This document shows positions 10,518-32,997 of a stretch of 64,000 nt of DNA, in pieces (the first letter of the stretch is position 1; every line of letters starts with the position of its first letter). The DNA comes from Desulfonispora thiosulfatigenes DSM 11270 (GTDB lineage: Bacteria > Bacillota > Peptococcia > Peptococcales > Desulfonisporaceae), in NCBI RefSeq assembly GCF_900176035.1, contig NZ_FWWT01000022.1:372001-436000 (forward strand), read 5' to 3'. Below the pieces are notes generated by a model that was not told the origin of the DNA, ran no database searches, and saw only the letters and a program-made list of their open reading frames with translations. The translations under genes and the position numbers were made by a program.

Positions 10518-11795
10518 TTACTTAAGAAATTGTACTGCATTTCCTTTTAAATCAGAAACCTCATATCCATCTAATGCATACCAAATAGCACTAAATGTAT
10601 GAGGATCTATTTCAAATTGGTCCTCTATAATATTTCCATCTTTATCAACCTTGTAGGTTAAATCTTTTAATTCGTCTTTAGTATTAGGACAATTTTCTGA
10701 ACAAATAATTTTCTTAAATCTCTTTACCTTTTTAGTATTTTGAAGCCTACTGCCTTGAAACTTTTTAGCTCCTGTAATATTAAAGCCTTGCTGCTTAAAA
10801 AACTGTATCGTTTTAGGTTCTGCACTATCTGCTCTTATTAATTCTCTAGTTGTTTTAAATTCAGCTATTTCAATAGCTGTTTTATCATCAGTCATTTTAT
10901 TTTTGTAATACTCCCAGTATATATAAAGAATTTTATTTTCATGATCTATGGCTAATCTTATTAAGGCATTATATGAAGTTTCAAATCCAAAATCAAAGCC
11001 GACACGTTTCATATCTTTTGGTATATTATTAATTCTTTCTATAACTTCATAATGTGGCAAAACTATAAATTGAGGCAAAACTCTAACTCCATTAACTCCA
11101 AATCTTCCCTTTCTAGCAATTCGATAAAGATCTAGGTCATATGTTTTTAGTTCCTCAAGTTGTTCTGTATAACTTTTAGGTAAAAATAAATTATCATCAG
11201 CAGTAGAATGATGATAATAAGTATTGTTTTTTATTATATTTCTTTCTTTATAAAGATCTTCGTCATTTAATATATATATCTTTTTCTTTTTATCTTGAAA
11301 GAAATGTTTGTATGACCAATTACTCTGACTAACAGGGTTTGTAGATAATATAAAGTGAATTGATAAACTTGGGTGTCTAGCCCTTCCTAGTAACTCTTTA
11401 TAACCCTCGTATTTTAATTCTGAACATTCTTCTATCCAAATGATTGTGACACCATGAATAGACTTTAATTTAGCAGGCTTATCCATACCTTTAAATATTA
11501 TCTGAGATCCATTAGGGAACTTTATCTGCATTGGAGATGTTGTTATTTTTATTGCATCATCTAATCCTAAATCTATAATGATTTCCTCCAGCAATGCAAA
11601 GCAACTATCTCTTATGGTCTCAAATACTTCTCTAACTACTAATGCTTTTCTTTTCTCCTGCAGTAACTTTAAAATTAGCTTTAAGGCTACATGATAACTT
11701 TTAGAACTTCCATATCCTCCTACAAGAAAATATGTTTTATAATCCCAATCAAATATAAAATTTTCAAAGTGAGGATTAATTTCTTTCTCTATCAC
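10518..11795 (-). CDS. Phage terminase large subunit (PBSX family)
   Basis: 425 residues. The N-terminal ATPase domain has a Walker A-like [11 protein letters not shown] near residue 26 and a Walker [13 protein letters not shown] near residue 115. A coupling STNP follows at about 150. The C-terminal RNase H-like nuclease shows GFDFGFE near residue 265 and RADSAEP near 315. It packages DNA into the prohead. It overlaps the small-subunit stop by four bases. Confidence 0.92.
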
Positions 11796-12337
11796 TTGTC
11801 CTCACCCTTTCGCTTAATTACTATTTCAATTGGTTTATCCTTATCTACTCCCTTAACTTTTTCTATATCAGCCTTCAATTTTTCAATCCTTAATTTTTGC
11901 TCTTCAGTAGCTAGATCAGTTTGCATCATTTCCTCATATCTTTTTATCATACTTCTAAGTTCTGACATTGCTCTTGATTGTGCTTGTAGAAAGTTAGCTT
12001 GTTTATCCCAAGCATATTGGAACTCCCATTCTCTTTCTGTAAAGGTATCTCCATCCTTTTCTTTTTTTAGATGTTTTGTAATATCATCTTGGTCTTTTAC
12101 ATACATAATTCTTTGAGCTCTTATAATTGCAGCATACTGAATAGTTATGTTCTCCCAAAGTATATCCAGTGAATCTTTTCCTTTAATTTCTTGGATAATG
12201 CTTAAGGTTTCATTAGGTAGATACTTACTAAAAAAGCCATGGGTTTCAGCATTTTTATTTCCTGCTGGAGCACCATGGCCTACTGCATTTTTATTATTTA
12301 AGGGTGCACCCTTCTTCTTTTTGTGTGCACCTTTTTG
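11792..12337 (-). CDS. Terminase small subunit, C-terminal part (reached by -1 shift)
   Basis: This frame carries the conserved middle and end of PBSX-type small terminases: [19 protein letters not shown], then [16 protein letters not shown], and a long helical C-terminus. It has no ribosome site of its own; the first possible start (TTG at 12355) lies inside the upstream frame. Reading AAAAAAC at 12343-12337 and slipping back one base joins it to the HTH part and gives about 232 residues, near family length. It binds pac DNA and stimulates the large subunit. Either slippage or a one-base indel in the A-run explains the split. Confidence 0.75.
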
Positions 12338-12489
12338 TTTTTTTCTTTTGACCAACCATATCTTTTTATCCAGGACTTAATTGTATTTATACTAACCTCA
12401 TATTTCTCGGCTAGGTCTTTATATTTCATACCATATAAATAATCTTGTTTGGCTAAGTCTTTGTCATCTGGATCCCTTATATTTGTCAT
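12298..12489 (-). CDS. Terminase small subunit, N-terminal HTH part
   Basis: 63 residues: [19 protein letters not shown] leads into a helix-turn-helix, [21 protein letters not shown], as at the N-terminus of PBSX/A118-type small terminases. After codon 51 the natural frame becomes a basic non-family tail (RRRVHP) and stops. The continuation expected from the family lies in the -1 frame. The junction is A AAA AAC in the reading frame, the classic slippery heptamer shape, at the end of a run of seven A. Confidence 0.75.
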
Positions 12490-12558: not shown

Positions 12559-13236
12559 TTAATTTCCTACCGATATTGTTTCTTTAATCTGTAAGTATTC
12601 TATTCTTTCTGATTCAAATCTAGCTAATTTGTACTTCGTAAAATATTTGTTTCCAAATAAATCTTCATAACGAATTTCTATAGGTTCTTCATAGTTAATA
12701 TTAAGAGGACACAAAAAATCCCAAAGTCTTTTTTCAATTGAGATGCCTTTTAAAGATTTATCAGATGGAATGACATTCCCAAATGACTTTATAAATATTT
12801 TCTCTTCATCGACAACTTCCACAACAATCTCTATATTAGTTGCTATGCCTAATCCAATATTCTTTATTTCTAATGAATCTATGTATGCATCACTAGCATA
12901 ACCAATATAAAATCTTCTGTCTACCCTCCAGTTGTTTCCCCTATCTCGTTCTTCTAAAATAAGAATAGGTCTTTCCCTTCTGTATTCCACATTCCTAGCT
13001 TCCTTAACTGTTATTAATACAGCAGTTAAAGTTCCTATTCCTCCTATCAAACCACCTAATAAAGAACCTAAAAATGATGCCCACTCACCGTTAGTTATAT
13101 TAGATCTATAACTATTACCAAAAATGAATTTATCTATCAGAAATGGAATCAGCATACTAGCTATAATCATAATAAGCATAGTCTTTACACCTATGTTTAT
13201 TATATCTTTTGATTTTAAAAAAGTTTTTCTACTCAT
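12559..13236 (-). CDS. Unknown two-helix membrane protein, prophage cargo
   Basis: 225 residues. Two hydrophobic helices lie near residues 17-35 (MLIMIIASMLIPFLIDKFIF) and 50-77 (a Gly-rich FLGSLLGGLIGGIG run). A soluble domain of about 140 residues follows, with a beta-like pattern. The start has a strong AAAGGAGG site. It lies between the packaging genes and a ParA operon in an accessory insertion, with a leader related to that of the next gene upstream. I do not recognise the family. A membrane sensor or effector is possible. Confidence 0.7.
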   Translation of the reverse strand: MSRKTFLKSKDIINIGVKTMLIMIIASMLIPFLIDKFIFGNSYRSNITNGEWASFLGSLLGGLIGGIGTLTAVLITVKEARNVEYRRERPILILEERDRGNNWRVDRRFYIGYASDAYIDSLEIKNIGLGIATNIEIVVEVVDEEKIFIKSFGNVIPSDKSLKGISIEKRLWDFLCPLNINYEEPIEIRYEDLFGNKYFTKYKLARFESERIEYLQIKETISVGN

Positions 13237-13348: not shown

Positions 13349-14227
13349 TTACGCTATATCAATTATCTTTAACTTTTTAACGGTTTTTTCTAGTGTTGTT
13401 GTGTTCAGGACTGTCTCTTTAAGGGCATGAACTTCTTTTTCTTGCATGAAAAGATTGCTTAGCAAATCTGCATCAGGTTTATTTATAAAATCAAAATTAT
13501 ATTCCTCATTTTCCCTAAGTTGATAATCATTAGACCTTATAATTTTTAATCTTCCAAAATATTGATTTCCATCCAACCTAAAAAAATTAGCCTTTATCTT
13601 AATTGTCTCGGGTTCTAGTTTTACCTTTTGTTGAAATAAGTTCTTTTCATGTTCCGTTATATTTATAGCTTTAGAATGCGGAAATTTTTTATCAGTAAAA
13701 TTTATAGATTTAACTCCTTTTTCATGATCAATACTTTTAGCCATTTGTTCAAAGTTAGTTTCTGCTTTTTTTACAAATGCTATGGTTTCATTAGGAATAA
13801 TAATGACTGTATTATTGTCTCCATTTATTACATTAAGCATATTATTATCACCTGCTTCTATTGTTATCTTTTCCCCATTTGAATTTGCGGTTAAAACAAA
13901 TTTCAAATACTTAAATCCACTTAAAACCAATTCAAACAAATCCTTAGGAGTAAGTGTACTAACATAAGGAATAGCTAATTGTGTTACAGTAGCTATATAG
14001 ATACCCATTTCAGACACAAAAGACCCATTTTTAAAATCTAAAGTTCTAATTTGAAAGATTTCCCTGTCTTTATCGCTCATACGTTTCTTATGATTTATGG
14101 TTAAATAGGATTTATCAAAAATTCCTTGAAAATTTTTAAGGCCTATTAGTAAATAGTAAAGATTTTTGCTATCATCAAACTGTTCCCCTGTCATTTTAAA
14201 TACAATATTTAATTCTTCTGAATTCAA
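13349..14227 (-). CDS. Unknown 292-residue cytoplasmic protein, prophage cargo
   Basis: No membrane segment is certain, although residues about 75-115 are fairly hydrophobic. The middle has a repeat-like GDNNMLNVINGDNNTVIII, suggesting a beta-turn region. The C-terminal half is mixed alpha/beta with many charged residues. It starts at TTG 14227 after GGGGGG. A terminator-like hairpin and a promoter lie upstream, so attenuation is possible. It probably works with the adjacent membrane protein gene, which has a related leader. The family is not recognised. Confidence 0.65.
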   Translation of the reverse strand: MNSEELNIVFKMTGEQFDDSKNLYYLLIGLKNFQGIFDKSYLTINHKKRMSDKDREIFQIRTLDFKNGSFVSEMGIYIATVTQLAIPYVSTLTPKDLFELVLSGFKYLKFVLTANSNGEKITIEAGDNNMLNVINGDNNTVIIIPNETIAFVKKAETNFEQMAKSIDHEKGVKSINFTDKKFPHSKAINITEHEKNLFQQKVKLEPETIKIKANFFRLDGNQYFGRLKIIRSNDYQLRENEEYNFDFINKPDADLLSNLFMQEKEVHALKETVLNTTTLEKTVKKLKIIDIA

Positions 14228-14367: not shown

Positions 14368-14395
14368 ATCATAATTTCCTATTAAAACTCGTCAA
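14368..14395 (-). promoter_or_regulatory. Minus-strand sigma-A-like promoter
   Basis: TTGACG (14395-14390), a 16-base spacer and TATGAT (14373-14368) form a good vegetative promoter reading toward the leader hairpin and the 292-residue protein gene. The remaining space between the divergent genes (14396-14591) is AT-rich and holds three TCGTC-containing words (14388-14417) that could be an operator. TATAAT at 14476-14481 is a possible -10 for the ParA operon. Confidence 0.5.
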
Positions 14396-14591
14396 CAATT
14401 CGTCGGAAACTCGTCATTTTATTTATCGAATTTACTTATTTTTCTGAAAAAGGTGGAAAAAATACCATTCGTTGCTATAATGAAACTATGAATGTGCATT
14501 GTCACGATAATAACTATAATTAAAACAGATACTTAGATTAACAAACAGCAAAGAAAAGCAACCCATATAAATGGGACGAGGGGGAAAAGTA

Positions 14592-15470
14592 TTGACTACA
14601 CATAATAATGCGAAAAACGTAATATCATTTATAAATATGAAGGGCGGTGTAGGGAAAACTACTCTATGTCTTAGCTTGGCTTATCAATTATCAATGGAAG
14701 ATAAAAAAAAGATATTAATAATAGATATGGATCCTCAATTCAATGCTACGCAAACAATGATGGAGCAATATGATTTAGTGGATGAATATTTGAATAAATT
14801 TAGAACAGAAAAATCAATTATTAATATTTTCAAAAGAAAAAAATCACTTACTAATACTAGATCTTCTGAAATAGAATTAAAACCAGAAGATACGATTATT
14901 AAATCTACTATCAATGAGAATTTAGATATTATTTGTGGAAATATTGATATCATTTTCGAGGATAATAATCAAGATTCGATAAGTAAAAAAAGGTTAGATC
15001 TGTTTATTCGTAAACATAAACTTAATGAATATTATGATTTTATATTTATTGATTGCCCTCCTACTATATCATTTTTTACAGATGCTTCTTTGATAGCCTC
15101 TGATTATTATTTAATACCAGTAAAAATAGATAAATTTTCAATTCTTGGCGTTAAGATGCTAGACAATGTTATAGCTTTAATGAAAGAGGATCCAGAAAAT
15201 AAAGTTGATTGTTTGGGTATAGTTTATACAATGGAGGAAAAACAAAAAAAGTTAGAATCGATAAAAGATCTTTTCGAAGAAAATGAACTAATAAGAGATA
15301 ATTATTATATTTTCTCTAATACCATGCCAAAACATAATCATTTACTATCTGGTAGTAAAGGAAATATAGCATACAATTATGATGATACTCGGGGAGATAT
15401 AAGATCATTAAGTAAAGAGTTCTTAAGGGTCTATTTTAAAGAAGGTGAACAAAATGAAGAATGTTCTTAA
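14592..15470 (+). CDS. ParA-family ATPase, first gene of three-gene cargo operon
   Basis: About 292 residues from TTG 14592, chosen because GAGGGGG lies seven bases upstream; an ATG at 14571 has no good site. Motifs: deviant Walker A MKGGVGKTTLCLS, Walker A' DMDPQFNAT, Walker B DFIFIDCPP. ParA ATPases bind DNA non-specifically and position DNA or protein cargo. The C-terminal part is close to plasmid and AAA_31-type ParA. No ParB is encoded next to it. It overlaps the following gene. It is on the opposite strand from the structural genes, in an AT-rich island, so it is probably acquired cargo for maintenance or defence. Confidence 0.88.
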   Translation: MTTHNNAKNVISFINMKGGVGKTTLCLSLAYQLSMEDKKKILIIDMDPQFNATQTMMEQYDLVDEYLNKFRTEKSIINIFKRKKSLTNTRSSEIELKPEDTIIKSTINENLDIICGNIDIIFEDNNQDSISKKRLDLFIRKHKLNEYYDFIFIDCPPTISFFTDASLIASDYYLIPVKIDKFSILGVKMLDNVIALMKEDPENKVDCLGIVYTMEEKQKKLESIKDLFEENELIRDNYYIFSNTMPKHNHLLSGSKGNIAYNYDDTRGDIRSLSKEFLRVYFKEGEQNEECS

Positions 15471-15840
15471 GAAGCATAATTCCGAACTTTATATAGAAGC
15501 TATTGGACTGAATTCACTTATTCTTTTATCAAAGGATCTATTCCCTTCAAATGATGATCTAAAGAGCTACACAGATGAAATTATTAAAATCGAACTAAAA
15601 AACTACTTATTCAAATCCAGAACATTACTAGTTGCAAAAATAAATAAGTATATTTATGACTTAGAAGTTGATGAAATTAAGACTCTTTACAAAAACATGA
15701 ATAATTATTTAATCAACAAAGATGGTAAGAGCGATAAAGACAATGATAACAATAAAAATAATAGAGATGAAAATAATAAAATTAATAATAAAAAAAATAA
15801 ATCTAAGGATAATTTAAAAACATGGTTAGAAAACATTTAG
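15454..15840 (+). CDS. Unknown small protein with Asn/Lys/Asp-rich tail, ParA partner
   Basis: 128 residues from ATG 15454, with GAAGGTG seven bases upstream and a 17-base overlap with the ParA gene. The first 85 residues are helical (YIEAIGLNSLILLSKDLFP). Residues about 93-118 are a low-complexity Asp/Asn/Lys tract (KSDKDNDNNKNN). The end, DNLKTWLENI, is coded in the overlap with the third gene. The position is that of a ParB- or adaptor-like partner, but no DNA-binding motif is visible. Confidence 0.65.
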   Translation: MKNVLKKHNSELYIEAIGLNSLILLSKDLFPSNDDLKSYTDEIIKIELKNYLFKSRTLLVAKINKYIYDLEVDEIKTLYKNMNNYLINKDGKSDKDNDNNKNNRDENNKINNKKNKSKDNLKTWLENI

Positions 15841-16523
15841 TTGACAAAAAAACTACAGAAGTTTTATTAAGTCCATACAAAGATATGATTACTGAGTATA
15901 AAGAATATATGGTTAAAAATATTAATGATACAAGAGGTAGTTATGACAAAGTAATAAATATCGGCAAATCATTAGTAATAATAAAAGAATACGTTTTTTC
16001 AGATAAATTTAAAGATGAGTATTTTTCTACATTACTAATATCTGATATAAATAGCTGTCTGTATTGTATTAGAAATAATTTACCCAAACGTTTCTTTTAC
16101 TTTTCTTTTAGAGGGTGTATAGAATCCTTCGCTAGATTAAATATTATCGAGAAGTCATCTAAGATAGTAGACAATGTATTTAAAGACTTTAAAAAACAAA
16201 ATAAGCATATTATTGCCGATAATGAATTTTATCAAGATTTTTTTTCTGTAATTAAATCAAAATATACTATTTCTTCAGGATATGTTCATGGCAGCATGAA
16301 TGCAAATCTATCCTTAAAAGAGTCTATTGAAGACTTTCATAATTCTAACTCTCATAGAGATACTCAAGAAATGATAGAGGATTTGGAAAAAATAGTAGAA
16401 TTAATAAAAAAATTCTATTTAAAAAAAGATACAAACCTTTCAATATTGAAGCATGCATACCACAGGAGAATTATTATCTTAAAATATTTATTAACTAATT
16501 CCGAAGTGAGACAATTATTTTAA
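15822..16523 (+). CDS. Unknown helical protein, third gene of ParA operon
   Basis: 233 residues, all-helical by pattern, overlapping the previous gene by 19 bases. RGCIESFARLN near residue 97 and SSGYVHGSMNANLS near 150 are reminiscent of DUF5677/Cthe_2314-type HEPN-like proteins, in which a conserved YVHG follows long helices. A full Rx4-6H nuclease motif is not seen, so ribonuclease activity is not supported. A terminator follows 14 bases later, closing the operon. The function is unknown; the tight overlaps argue for a complex with the ParA ATPase. Confidence 0.65.
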   Translation: MVRKHLVDKKTTEVLLSPYKDMITEYKEYMVKNINDTRGSYDKVINIGKSLVIIKEYVFSDKFKDEYFSTLLISDINSCLYCIRNNLPKRFFYFSFRGCIESFARLNIIEKSSKIVDNVFKDFKKQNKHIIADNEFYQDFFSVIKSKYTISSGYVHGSMNANLSLKESIEDFHNSNSHRDTQEMIEDLEKIVELIKKFYLKKDTNLSILKHAYHRRIIILKYLLTNSEVRQLF

Positions 16524-16536
16524 CTTGCTATAATTT

Positions 16537-16573
16537 AAAACTAATCTTTTTTTGATTAAAGATTAGTTTTTTT
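16537..16573 (+). terminator. Rho-independent terminator of ParA operon
   Basis: A 13-bp stem, AAAACTAATCTTT with AAAGATTAGTTTT, around an eight-base loop, followed by seven T on the plus strand. Between here and 16769 I see only another A/T hairpin (16729-16763) that may end the minus-strand regulator gene. Confidence 0.85.
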
Positions 16574-16769: not shown

Positions 16770-17297
16770 TTAAGCCCTAACCTTCAAAAATTCATGAAAC
16801 CTACTAAGAATCCTTTCCCTAGTTCTCCGTACTGTTGCCTCACCACAATTTAAAGTTATGCCAACTCCAATGTTAGAGCGTTGATACAAGTAGCACTGTT
16901 CAAACACAGCTTTTTCAAAATCATCTAAATGTGTATTTGCTATATACTCAACCCAATCAATTTTGCTTTCAAGTTGCATAATCCGACACTTTAATTTAAT
17001 CTTTATTTTTCTAAGATTTTGTATTTTCTCAAATATTTTTGCTTGATTCATTTCGTACATATAGCTTGCCCGTTCAATTGGAGTAAATTCAGAAGAACCT
17101 CCATGTCCACCTCCTGGGGTAAACCTCATTTGCCCAGGGGAAGGGAGTAGATCTTCTTTTTCTGCGAGTATTCCACGAAATTCTCGTATCTCTTTTTCTA
17201 TTTTTTCTGCTGCTACATAAAGACCCTCTAGTCTTTGTTTATTCTTCCAAAACCTCTTAAGAGAGTTTTCTAGCTGCCTTTTTGTATCTTTATTCAT
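16770..17297 (-). CDS. ArpU/RinA-like phage late-gene regulator
   Basis: 175 residues. The N-terminal half is a coiled coil (FWKNKQRLEGLYVAAEKIEKE). The C-terminal half has LDDFEKAVFEQCYL and a helix-turn-helix TLNCGEATVRRTRERILSRF, like sigma region 4-type late regulators (RinA, ArpU, Xpf). It lies at the end of the early block and upstream, in transcription terms, of the packaging genes. It would switch on head and tail genes during induction. The cargo insertion separates it from its likely target, the terminase promoter. Confidence 0.7.
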   Translation of the reverse strand: MNKDTKRQLENSLKRFWKNKQRLEGLYVAAEKIEKEIREFRGILAEKEDLLPSPGQMRFTPGGGHGGSSEFTPIERASYMYEMNQAKIFEKIQNLRKIKIKLKCRIMQLESKIDWVEYIANTHLDDFEKAVFEQCYLYQRSNIGVGITLNCGEATVRRTRERILSRFHEFLKVRA

Positions 17298-31440: not shown

Positions 31441-31449
31441 GTGAATATA

Positions 31450-32997
31450 ATGAGCTATAAGCGTGTTGCTATGTATTTGCGAAAATCTCGAGCTGACTTT
31501 GAAGCTGAGGCTCGTGGAGAAGGAGAAACTTTAGCTAAACACAAAAAGACGCTTCTAAAGTTATCCAAAGAATTAAAATTAAATATAGTTAAGATATATG
31601 AAGAAGTTGTCTCAGGGGAAAGCTTAATCCATAGACCAGAGATGTTAGAATTATTAAAACGAGTAGAAAACAAGGAATATGATGCCGTAATCTGTATGGA
31701 CGTTGACCGTTTAGGGCGTGGAAATATGCAGGAACAAGGGTTAATATTAGAAACCTTTAAAGAGGCTCATACAAACATAATTACGCCCCGTAAAACTTAT
31801 GACCTGCACGACGAATGGGATGAAGAATATAGCGAATTTGAAGCCTTTATGGCTAGAAAAGAATTAAAAATAATTACACGAAGGTTACAGTCGGGTCGAG
31901 TACGAAGCGTGGAAGAAGGAAATTATATAGGTACAAATCCTCCTTTTGGGTACGAGATTAATAGAGATAATATAGGCAGAACACTAATCCCCCACCCTGA
32001 ACAAGCTCCTGCAATTAAATTAATCTTTGATTTATATATTAATGGTGGCAAAGGATCTAATAAAATCGCAAATGAACTAAATGCACTAGGTTATAAAACC
32101 TACACAGGGATCAAATGGAAAAGCTCATCAGTTCTAACTATTATAAAAAACCCTATTTATGCTGGGAAAATAACTTGGAAAAAGAAAGAAATAAAAAAAT
32201 CCAAAACCCCTGGACAAAAACGAGATACCAAAGAACGCCCTAAGGACGAATGGATTATAGCTGATGGTAGGCATGTGCCAATTATTAGCATGGAAACTTA
32301 TATGAAGGCACAAGCAATATTAAAAAGCAGATACCATGTCCCCTATCAGCTTGAAAACGGGATTTCTAACCCACTTGCAGGTCTAATTAGATGTGAAGTT
32401 TGTGGAGCGTCTATGGTTTATAGACCTTATACTAATGGTAGAGATCCACATATAATGTGTTATAACAGGTTTTGTCAAAATAAAAGTAGTAAGTTTAAAT
32501 ATGTAGAGGAAAGATTAATTAAAGCTTTAGAAGATTGGTTAAGAGAATATAAAGCCAGCTGGGAAGGTTATGATAAAGAAGAAAGTAATGAAACGGATAT
32601 TATAGAAATAAAAAGGAAAGCTATTTTTAACTTAGAAAAAGAATTAGACCAATTAGAAAATCAAAAAGAAAAATTACACGATTTTTTAGAGCGTGGCATT
32701 TATGACGAAGAAACTTATTTAGAACGATCTCAAAACTTAGCTACCAGAATAGAAGAAACTTTAAAAACAATCACGCTTTCTAAAAAAGAGTTAAAACAAG
32801 ATGCACGAAAGGAATTAGCACAAAAAAATATAATTCCTAAATTAGAGAACGTAATTAAACTTTATAAAACCTCGAAGGATCCAGCACAAAAAAATAGCTT
32901 ACTCAAGTCAGTGCTTGAGAAAGCTATTTACAATAAAGAGAAGATTCAGCGAAATGATGACTTTTATTTAACTTTATACCCTAAACTACCAAAATGA
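31450..32997 (+). CDS. Large serine recombinase, SpoIVCA-like
   Basis: About 515 residues from ATG 31450, with GAGGTG six bases upstream. The resolvase domain has VAMYLRKSRAD, the nucleophile region Y-L-R-K-S, and DAVICMDVDRLGRGNMQEQG. The recombinase domain shows GTNPPFGYEI and GSNKIANELNALGYKT. A zinc ribbon follows (CEVCGAS...MCYNRFC), then a coiled coil (residues about 390-460). It lies 44 bases from the broken sigK, in convergent orientation, exactly as spoIVCA lies by spoIVCB in B. subtilis. It should excise the element, perhaps in the mother cell. Confidence 0.93.
   Translation: MSYKRVAMYLRKSRADFEAEARGEGETLAKHKKTLLKLSKELKLNIVKIYEEVVSGESLIHRPEMLELLKRVENKEYDAVICMDVDRLGRGNMQEQGLILETFKEAHTNIITPRKTYDLHDEWDEEYSEFEAFMARKELKIITRRLQSGRVRSVEEGNYIGTNPPFGYEINRDNIGRTLIPHPEQAPAIKLIFDLYINGGKGSNKIANELNALGYKTYTGIKWKSSSVLTIIKNPIYAGKITWKKKEIKKSKTPGQKRDTKERPKDEWIIADGRHVPIISMETYMKAQAILKSRYHVPYQLENGISNPLAGLIRCEVCGASMVYRPYTNGRDPHIMCYNRFCQNKSSKFKYVEERLIKALEDWLREYKASWEGYDKEESNETDIIEIKRKAIFNLEKELDQLENQKEKLHDFLERGIYDEETYLERSQNLATRIEETLKTITLSKKELKQDARKELAQKNIIPKLENVIKLYKTSKDPAQKNSLLKSVLEKAIYNKEKIQRNDDFYLTLYPKLPK

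Follow-up and report, generated by a model that had tools for sequence, protein, structure and literature searches.

Three overlapping genes in a prophage of Desulfonispora thiosulfatigenes DSM 11270, encoding a ParA-type ATPase, a small partner and an HEPN-like protein, were identified as a phage cargo cassette that is widespread and whose parts had not been linked before; it is probably akin to NTPase-gated phage RNase modules. The same trio was found in the same order at about 32 distinct loci. On balance, it is considered to be a mobile phage-cargo cassette for a probable ParA-gated HEPN RNase module, presumably of the exclusion or abortive-infection type. A defence role fits both the position of the genes and a published phenotype, and is plausible. 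The locus was analysed within a window of 64,000 nucleotides (contig NZ_FWWT01000022.1, positions 372,001 to 436,000 of the forward strand), and all coordinates without an accession or locus name are those of this window.

Locus layout and prophage setting

The initial annotation had described three plus-strand reading frames that overlap at each junction and share a terminator, and this layout was confirmed. Gene 1 (14592..15470, plus strand) encodes a ParA-family deviant-Walker ATPase of 292 aa; its TTG start codon (14592) is preceded by a ribosome-binding site (GAGGGGG, 14578-14584, plus strand). Gene 2 (15454..15840, plus strand) encodes a partner protein of 128 aa, and gene 3 (15822..16523, plus strand) an all-helical, HEPN-like protein of 233 aa, which is a predicted metal-independent RNase. 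Genes 1 and 2 overlap by 17 bp and genes 2 and 3 by 19 bp, and identical overlaps were found at two other loci (L012 and L014). The common terminator is a hairpin (16537..16570, plus strand) with a 13-bp stem followed by a T tail (-12 kcal/mol; z -4.6; 0 of 200 shuffles equally stable); it was missed by the consensus terminator scan because the stem is A+T-rich. The candidate promoter with an extended -10 element (TGCTATAAT, 14454..14481, plus strand) is a pattern match only, from a consensus scan in which the number of matches was not above that in shuffles.

The window holds an integrated minus-strand prophage with capsid, portal and terminase genes (6-12 kb), repressors, RecE/RecT and a large serine integrase (31441-32997). 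As had been noted before, the trio lies on the strand opposite to the flanking genes, between a late regulator of the ArpU/phrog_36 type (16770-17297, minus strand) and the terminase (small subunit, 11792-12355; large subunit, 10518-11795; both minus strand). Two genes annotated without function (12559-13236 and 13349-14227, both minus strand; matches to phrog_30577 and phrog_33593, respectively, in the order listed) separate the trio from the small subunit gene, so that the insertion may exceed the trio; they are possibly part of the same or of another cargo insertion.

Spread and constancy of the cassette

Direct tblastn searches of phages and plasmids with genes 2 and 3 gave almost no matches because both diverge fast; the conserved ParA was used as the entry query to the family. 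By tblastn with ParA, the trio was found in Streptococcus phage Javan1, Lactococcus phage PLg-TB25 and Lactobacillus phage LF1, and a scan of IMG/VR with a ParA profile yielded 80 loci. When HMMs of genes 2 and 3 were applied, nearly all loci with the most query-like ParA proved to carry the full ordered trio, and loci with a more distant ParA carried neither gene. Two loci (L040 and L046) hold a diverged third gene of equal size with the same R..E/H pattern. At another (L041, 2161-3429), ParA and gene 2 occur with no recognisable gene 3 and the next gene runs in the opposite direction, which counts against the main reading. The initial annotation would have been contradicted by genes 2 and 3 never occurring with ParA; they do, and all three genes were present at every locus reached from gene 2 or close gene 3 queries (in Peptostreptococcus sp. 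D1, Desulfosporosinus fructosivorans, E. coli, Fusobacterium vincentii and one more genome from the phylum of the host).

Trios were found in Salmonella, E. coli, Streptococcus, Lactococcus, Lactobacillus, Peptostreptococcus, Desulfosporosinus and Fusobacterium, a range of at least three phyla (Pseudomonadota, Bacillota and Fusobacteriota), and gene order, overlaps and sizes are constant across the 32 distinct loci. The genes are typically cargo of temperate phages near a repressor, an integrase or a late regulator; in Gifsy-1, Javan1 and LF1 they lie on the repressor side. The neighbourhood is dominated by repressors, antirepressors and integrases, which fits exclusion cargo. The E. coli trio (WP_001619161, WP_032247022 and WP_000957441) was present at 99% identity or more in 52 of 5,426 complete genomes, and on the two chromosomes inspected it occupies the cargo region of a lambdoid prophage, near tail-fibre and DUF262 genes.

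Plasmid matches were few and plasmid carriage is almost nil. A circular record of 44.6 kb deposited as an E. coli plasmid (NZ_CP148393.1) holds lambdoid phage genes, an integrase and the trio, and looks like a circularised prophage. A 2.1-Mb "plasmid" record of Fusobacterium vincentii with a complete trio (NZ_CP084075.1) is chromosome-sized. In three E. coli records (NZ_CP025950.3, NZ_CP049081.1 and NZ_CP103758.1), IS903B or IS3 lies inside an otherwise intact trio region, and in NZ_CP025950.3 ParA is split by the insertion element; these interruptions suggest that the trio can be lost or selected against. Two phage contigs (L049 and L051) carry other pairs of ParA and a small gene, lack genes 2 and 3 of the cassette, and possibly represent different ParA cargo systems.

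Pairwise distance matrices of the three proteins were compared across 32 distinct trios. Mantel correlations were 0.86 (ParA and gene 3), 0.69 (ParA and gene 2) and 0.70 (gene 2 and gene 3), against a maximum of 0.30 in 2,000 permutations per pair. This shows that the three genes travel together; physical contact does not follow by itself, and the correlation is partly due to the shared descent of the cassette.

The three proteins

The three proteins are held separately in PHROGs, as phrog_164 (ParA), phrog_6264 (gene 2; match at 1e-21) and phrog_7540 (gene 3; match at 1.4e-12). Gene 1 also matches Pfam AAA_31 (6.6e-39). The KGGVGKTT motif with the signature lysine, together with the Walker A' and B aspartates, was found in 32/32 members, and K17, K22, D45, D47 and D154 are likewise unchanged in all of them. 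The positions of R189 and R218, DNA-binding residues of Bacillus subtilis Soj, are basic in only 4 and 2 of the 32 trio ParAs, compared with 25 and 23 of 44 ParAs whose loci lack genes 2 and 3. The alignment is gappy at both positions, and a shift by one residue still gives no conserved basic residue. As far as can be judged from the alignment, the loss of both arginines points to ParA as a switch and not as a nucleoid-surfing partition motor. A role of ParA as a nucleoid sensor was considered in view of the published Fis requirement, and was weakened by the same loss.

Gene 2 encodes a helical core with F..N and Y..SRT..A[KR] motifs (conserved columns among 32 members: N33, Y51 and S55-R56), a disordered, charged Asn/Asp/Lys linker and, beyond it, a C-terminal helix with a conserved Trp. 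The AlphaFold2 model is all-helical with no strand, confident for residues 11-90 and of low confidence for residues 97-115. A Foldseek search was uninformative and VIA-align gave nothing convincing (best Z 5.2). The protein looks like an adaptor. The diversity within four gene 2/gene 3 alignments precluded pattern scans.

For gene 3, an HEPN fold had been suspected in the initial annotation, and the suspicion gained support from comparison of the predicted fold and from invariant residues. R97, E101 and H156 are unchanged in 32/32 members and position 105 is [KR] in 30/32; the mean identity per column is 26% (28-row alignment). The AlphaFold2 model (pLDDT 87.6, pTM 0.86) gave no significant Foldseek match against the PDB. 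When the best 987 chains from Foldseek were compared by using VIA-align, ranks 1-13 were all HEPN-type proteins: the best row was 2hsb (Z 11.7, rmsd 3.2, 121 aligned), other top rows included the sacsin HEPN domain and HepT toxins (Z 7.5-9.6), and Csm6 was found at rank 18. Z values of 8-12 are modest for a helical protein; what argues for the fold is that all top rows agree. The titles of 2q00 and 1wwp, both among the 13, do not mention HEPN; 1wwp serves as an example in a survey of HEPN proteins (PMC3710099). According to that survey, an Ex3[KR] motif is found on helix 2 and the catalytic His where helix 3 ends (PMC3710099). In gene 3, the third bundle helix (135-156) ends with H156 and the second (89-106) carries E101xxx[KR]105, and the agreement of these positions supports the assignment. 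The arginine of the canonical Rx4-6H motif is missing, with no Arg 5-7 residues ahead of H156, and the invariant R97 sits on helix 2 instead; some HEPN families keep the His with no conserved Arg there (PMC3710099). Sequence searches of gene 3, Pfam included, returned no HEPN family, and a profile search of PDB sequences was empty. Judged by its model, gene 3 probably encodes a protein with an HEPN fold, an active site of variant type and putative RNase activity.

DUF5677 (PF18928) was considered as a parent family of gene 3 and not adopted: the two have an R[ST]xxE...[SC]xxx[VATS]H pattern in common, a likeness at the level of the motif with no Pfam match and an hhalign probability of only 2.9%. 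Weak gene 3 profile matches without ParA were also discarded; one is an AAA ATPase/peptidase-like protein matched by chance (L108), and the others (L109-L111) resemble gene 3 solely in the region of the R and YVH/YIH motifs. In two of these, from other genomes of the phylum (L109 and L111), the short protein with this pattern lies directly after type I restriction HsdM-like fragments.

Salmonella counterpart, proposed mechanism and alternatives

In Salmonella 14028s, the Gifsy-1 region STM14_3218-3220 was found by Kurasz et al. (2023) to be needed for SOS-dependent activation of RtcR (PMC9879122). STM14_3218 (840 bp) is ParA-like with no ParB, and is accompanied by STM14_3219 (309 bp) and STM14_3220 (663 bp); the three lie in the immunity region with the repressor gene gfoR, and their expression is unchanged by mitomycin C (PMC9879122). 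Deletion lowered RtcR activation 50-fold and raised Gifsy titres 2-4-fold, and expression of the region alone gave no RtcR response (PMC9879122). Tn5 insertions were in the first gene and may be polar, and complementation in trans was weak (PMC9879122). The signal that activates RtcR was inferred to be anticodon-cleaved tRNA. In the same strain, DNA damage leads to RecA-dependent cleavage of tRNA anticodon loops, which leaves 2',3'-cyclic phosphate ends, the RtcR ligand; more than 20 candidate nucleases were tested and none was found responsible (Hughes et al., 2020; PMC7790460). Ends of this type are generated by HEPN RNases (PMC3710099). Together with the RtcR requirement and the gap left by the nuclease tests, this makes the gene 3 family a natural candidate for the nuclease.

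One Salmonella trio in our set (L019) has a ParA gene of 840 bp, a gene 3 of 663 bp and, if the GTG of codon 29 is taken as its start, a gene 2 of 309 bp. The sequences on either side of the trio match Gifsy-1 of strain LT2 at 97-99.6% identity; the insert is missing there, and the LT2 prophage is also reported to lack the STM14_3218-3220 region (PMC9879122). From the triple match of gene lengths and the location, L019 appears to be STM14_3218-3220. Gene 2 of L019 (5818-6210) is open for 28 codons upstream of the published STM14_3219 start, and the STM14_3219 annotation is probably too short. The Gifsy-1 region and the window trio both consist of ParA, a small gene and a gene for a protein of about 220-230 aa, with the same gene order and strand arrangement; L019 falls into the same HMM families, and the Gifsy-1 genes are prophage cargo beside a repressor with no ParB. 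They differ in that the former is known genetically as one region, and the window member is distant and lies beside the late regulator; gene 3 of the window is only about 16-17% identical to its counterparts in L017 and L019, which counts against equal function.

In the proposed mechanism, the ParA-type ATPase would serve as the switch, gene 2 as a small adaptor and gene 3 as the effector, an HEPN-type endoribonuclease. The complex would be produced in the lysogen but kept silent, with ParA and gene 2 holding gene 3 inactive. A phage lytic programme, from an infecting phage or from prophage induction in the same cell, would then change the nucleotide or binding state of ParA and gene 2, by which the HEPN protein would be freed or activated. 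It would cut tRNA anticodon loops to give 2',3'-cyclic phosphate ends, translation would stall and the phage yield would fall. Gene 3 would thus be the nuclease, tRNA its direct target and ParA with gene 2 its gate, with action also on other phages, and the distant window member would act like the Salmonella one. RtcB is encoded by the window host, which makes repair of ends of this type possible there.

The cassette might instead restrain or tune the lytic cycle of its own prophage, with an RNase that on induction slows host and phage translation and limits or times the burst or favours phage messages. The published phenotype concerns SOS induction of the resident prophage and is best in cis, and the raised titres of the deletion strain point the same way (PMC9879122), as does the suggestion that prophage nucleases might reduce host translation (PMC7790460). 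We nevertheless regard this as unlikely, since the cassette is mobile and occupies varied cargo sites in unrelated phages, with no fixed regulatory circuit, and since sister phages, LT2 Gifsy-1 included, do without it. Rather less probable is stabilisation of the prophage by a toxin-antitoxin addiction module, with gene 3 as the toxin and gene 2 (with ParA) as the antitoxin. The overlapping genes of the operon and the HepT-type HEPN toxins among the best fold matches of gene 3 would suit such a module, and gene 2 has its best match, a weak one, in the epsilon antitoxin; however, that match is within noise, and the trio loci retain a third gene, for an ATPase whose catalytic residues are invariant, which would be needless for a simple pair.

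A maintenance system for the excised phage circle, raised in the initial annotation, would have ParA act with gene 2 as the centromere-binding protein and gene 3 as an accessory. Membership of the ParA family is in its favour, and of the parS-like repeats suggested there near 14388-14417, boxes do exist in the window: three (ACTCGTCA, ATTCGTCG and ACTCGTCA, exactly 11 bp apart) lie at 14387-14416, and their pattern occurs 11 times in the window versus 3.4 times in shuffles, about a threefold excess. Upstream of other members there is no such array, and no centromere or iteron array was found in 33 upstream regions of the family. Box 1 overlaps the -35 element of a candidate minus-strand promoter, and the boxes may be an operator. 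Gene 2 has no ParB- or RHH-type Pfam match, and the Soj arginines are not kept. One E. coli member lies on the 44.6-kb circular record, but this record itself has an integrase, homologues occur in integrated prophages beside integrases, and plasmid matches are scarce. Partition also accounts for neither gene 3 nor the RtcR phenotype, and we consider it highly improbable.

The reading as a ParA-gated RNase module is preferred. A wider proposal is put forward more tentatively: ParA may have been turned from a DNA-segregation motor into an RNase switch, giving a phage-borne ParA/adaptor/HEPN immune module across Pseudomonadota, Bacillota and Fusobacteriota, of which the Salmonella member would be the SOS-dependent anticodon nuclease that feeds RtcR-RtcBA repair.

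Among known systems, the rexAB genes of phage lambda are cargo expressed in the lysogen, located after the cI repressor gene, with a role in exclusion. The Gifsy-1 trio likewise lies after a repressor, although the proteins are unrelated. With the Soj/ParA partition ATPases, gene 1 has the fold family and the ATPase residues in common, whereas the trio has no ParB and no parS array shared across the family, and the DNA-binding arginines are not kept. PrrC and RloC offer a functional analogy as HEPN RNases that are restrained by an NTPase and cleave tRNA anticodon loops; in these proteins an SbcC/Rad50-like ABC domain of the same polypeptide serves as the NTPase, whereas the trio has a separate ParA and adaptor and a single HEPN-like protein without the Rx4-6H arginine. 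HepT/MntA resembles the trio in having an HEPN-fold toxin in a short operon, the toxin being among the best structural matches to gene 3, but MntA is a nucleotidyltransferase antitoxin and the trio has no such protein. PARIS (AriA-AriB) is analogous as a phage-borne ATPase with a tRNA-cutting effector, but AriA is an ABC-type ATPase. AriB is a Toprim nuclease (PMC12409363), and the PADLOC scan showed no relation of PARIS to the trio. No whole-protein match to a known defence system was found in PADLOC-DB 2.0.0: ParA gave short P-loop matches and one weak match to mad8 (E 4.9e-5), one gene 2 homologue gave a 40-residue match (E 0.0027), and gene 3 gave none. In the literature searched, no ParA-linked or ParA-gated HEPN system was reported, although a recent report could have escaped.

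The two Salmonella 14028s papers left the tRNA-cutting nuclease and the roles of the two small genes unexplained. For gene 3, the family described here offers a predicted fold and a candidate active site (R, E, H), and shows how widely the protein is distributed phylogenetically. If the proposal is true, it would represent a new control principle, an RNase gated by a ParA-type ATPase, and would explain the puzzling ParB-less ParA genes of prophages.
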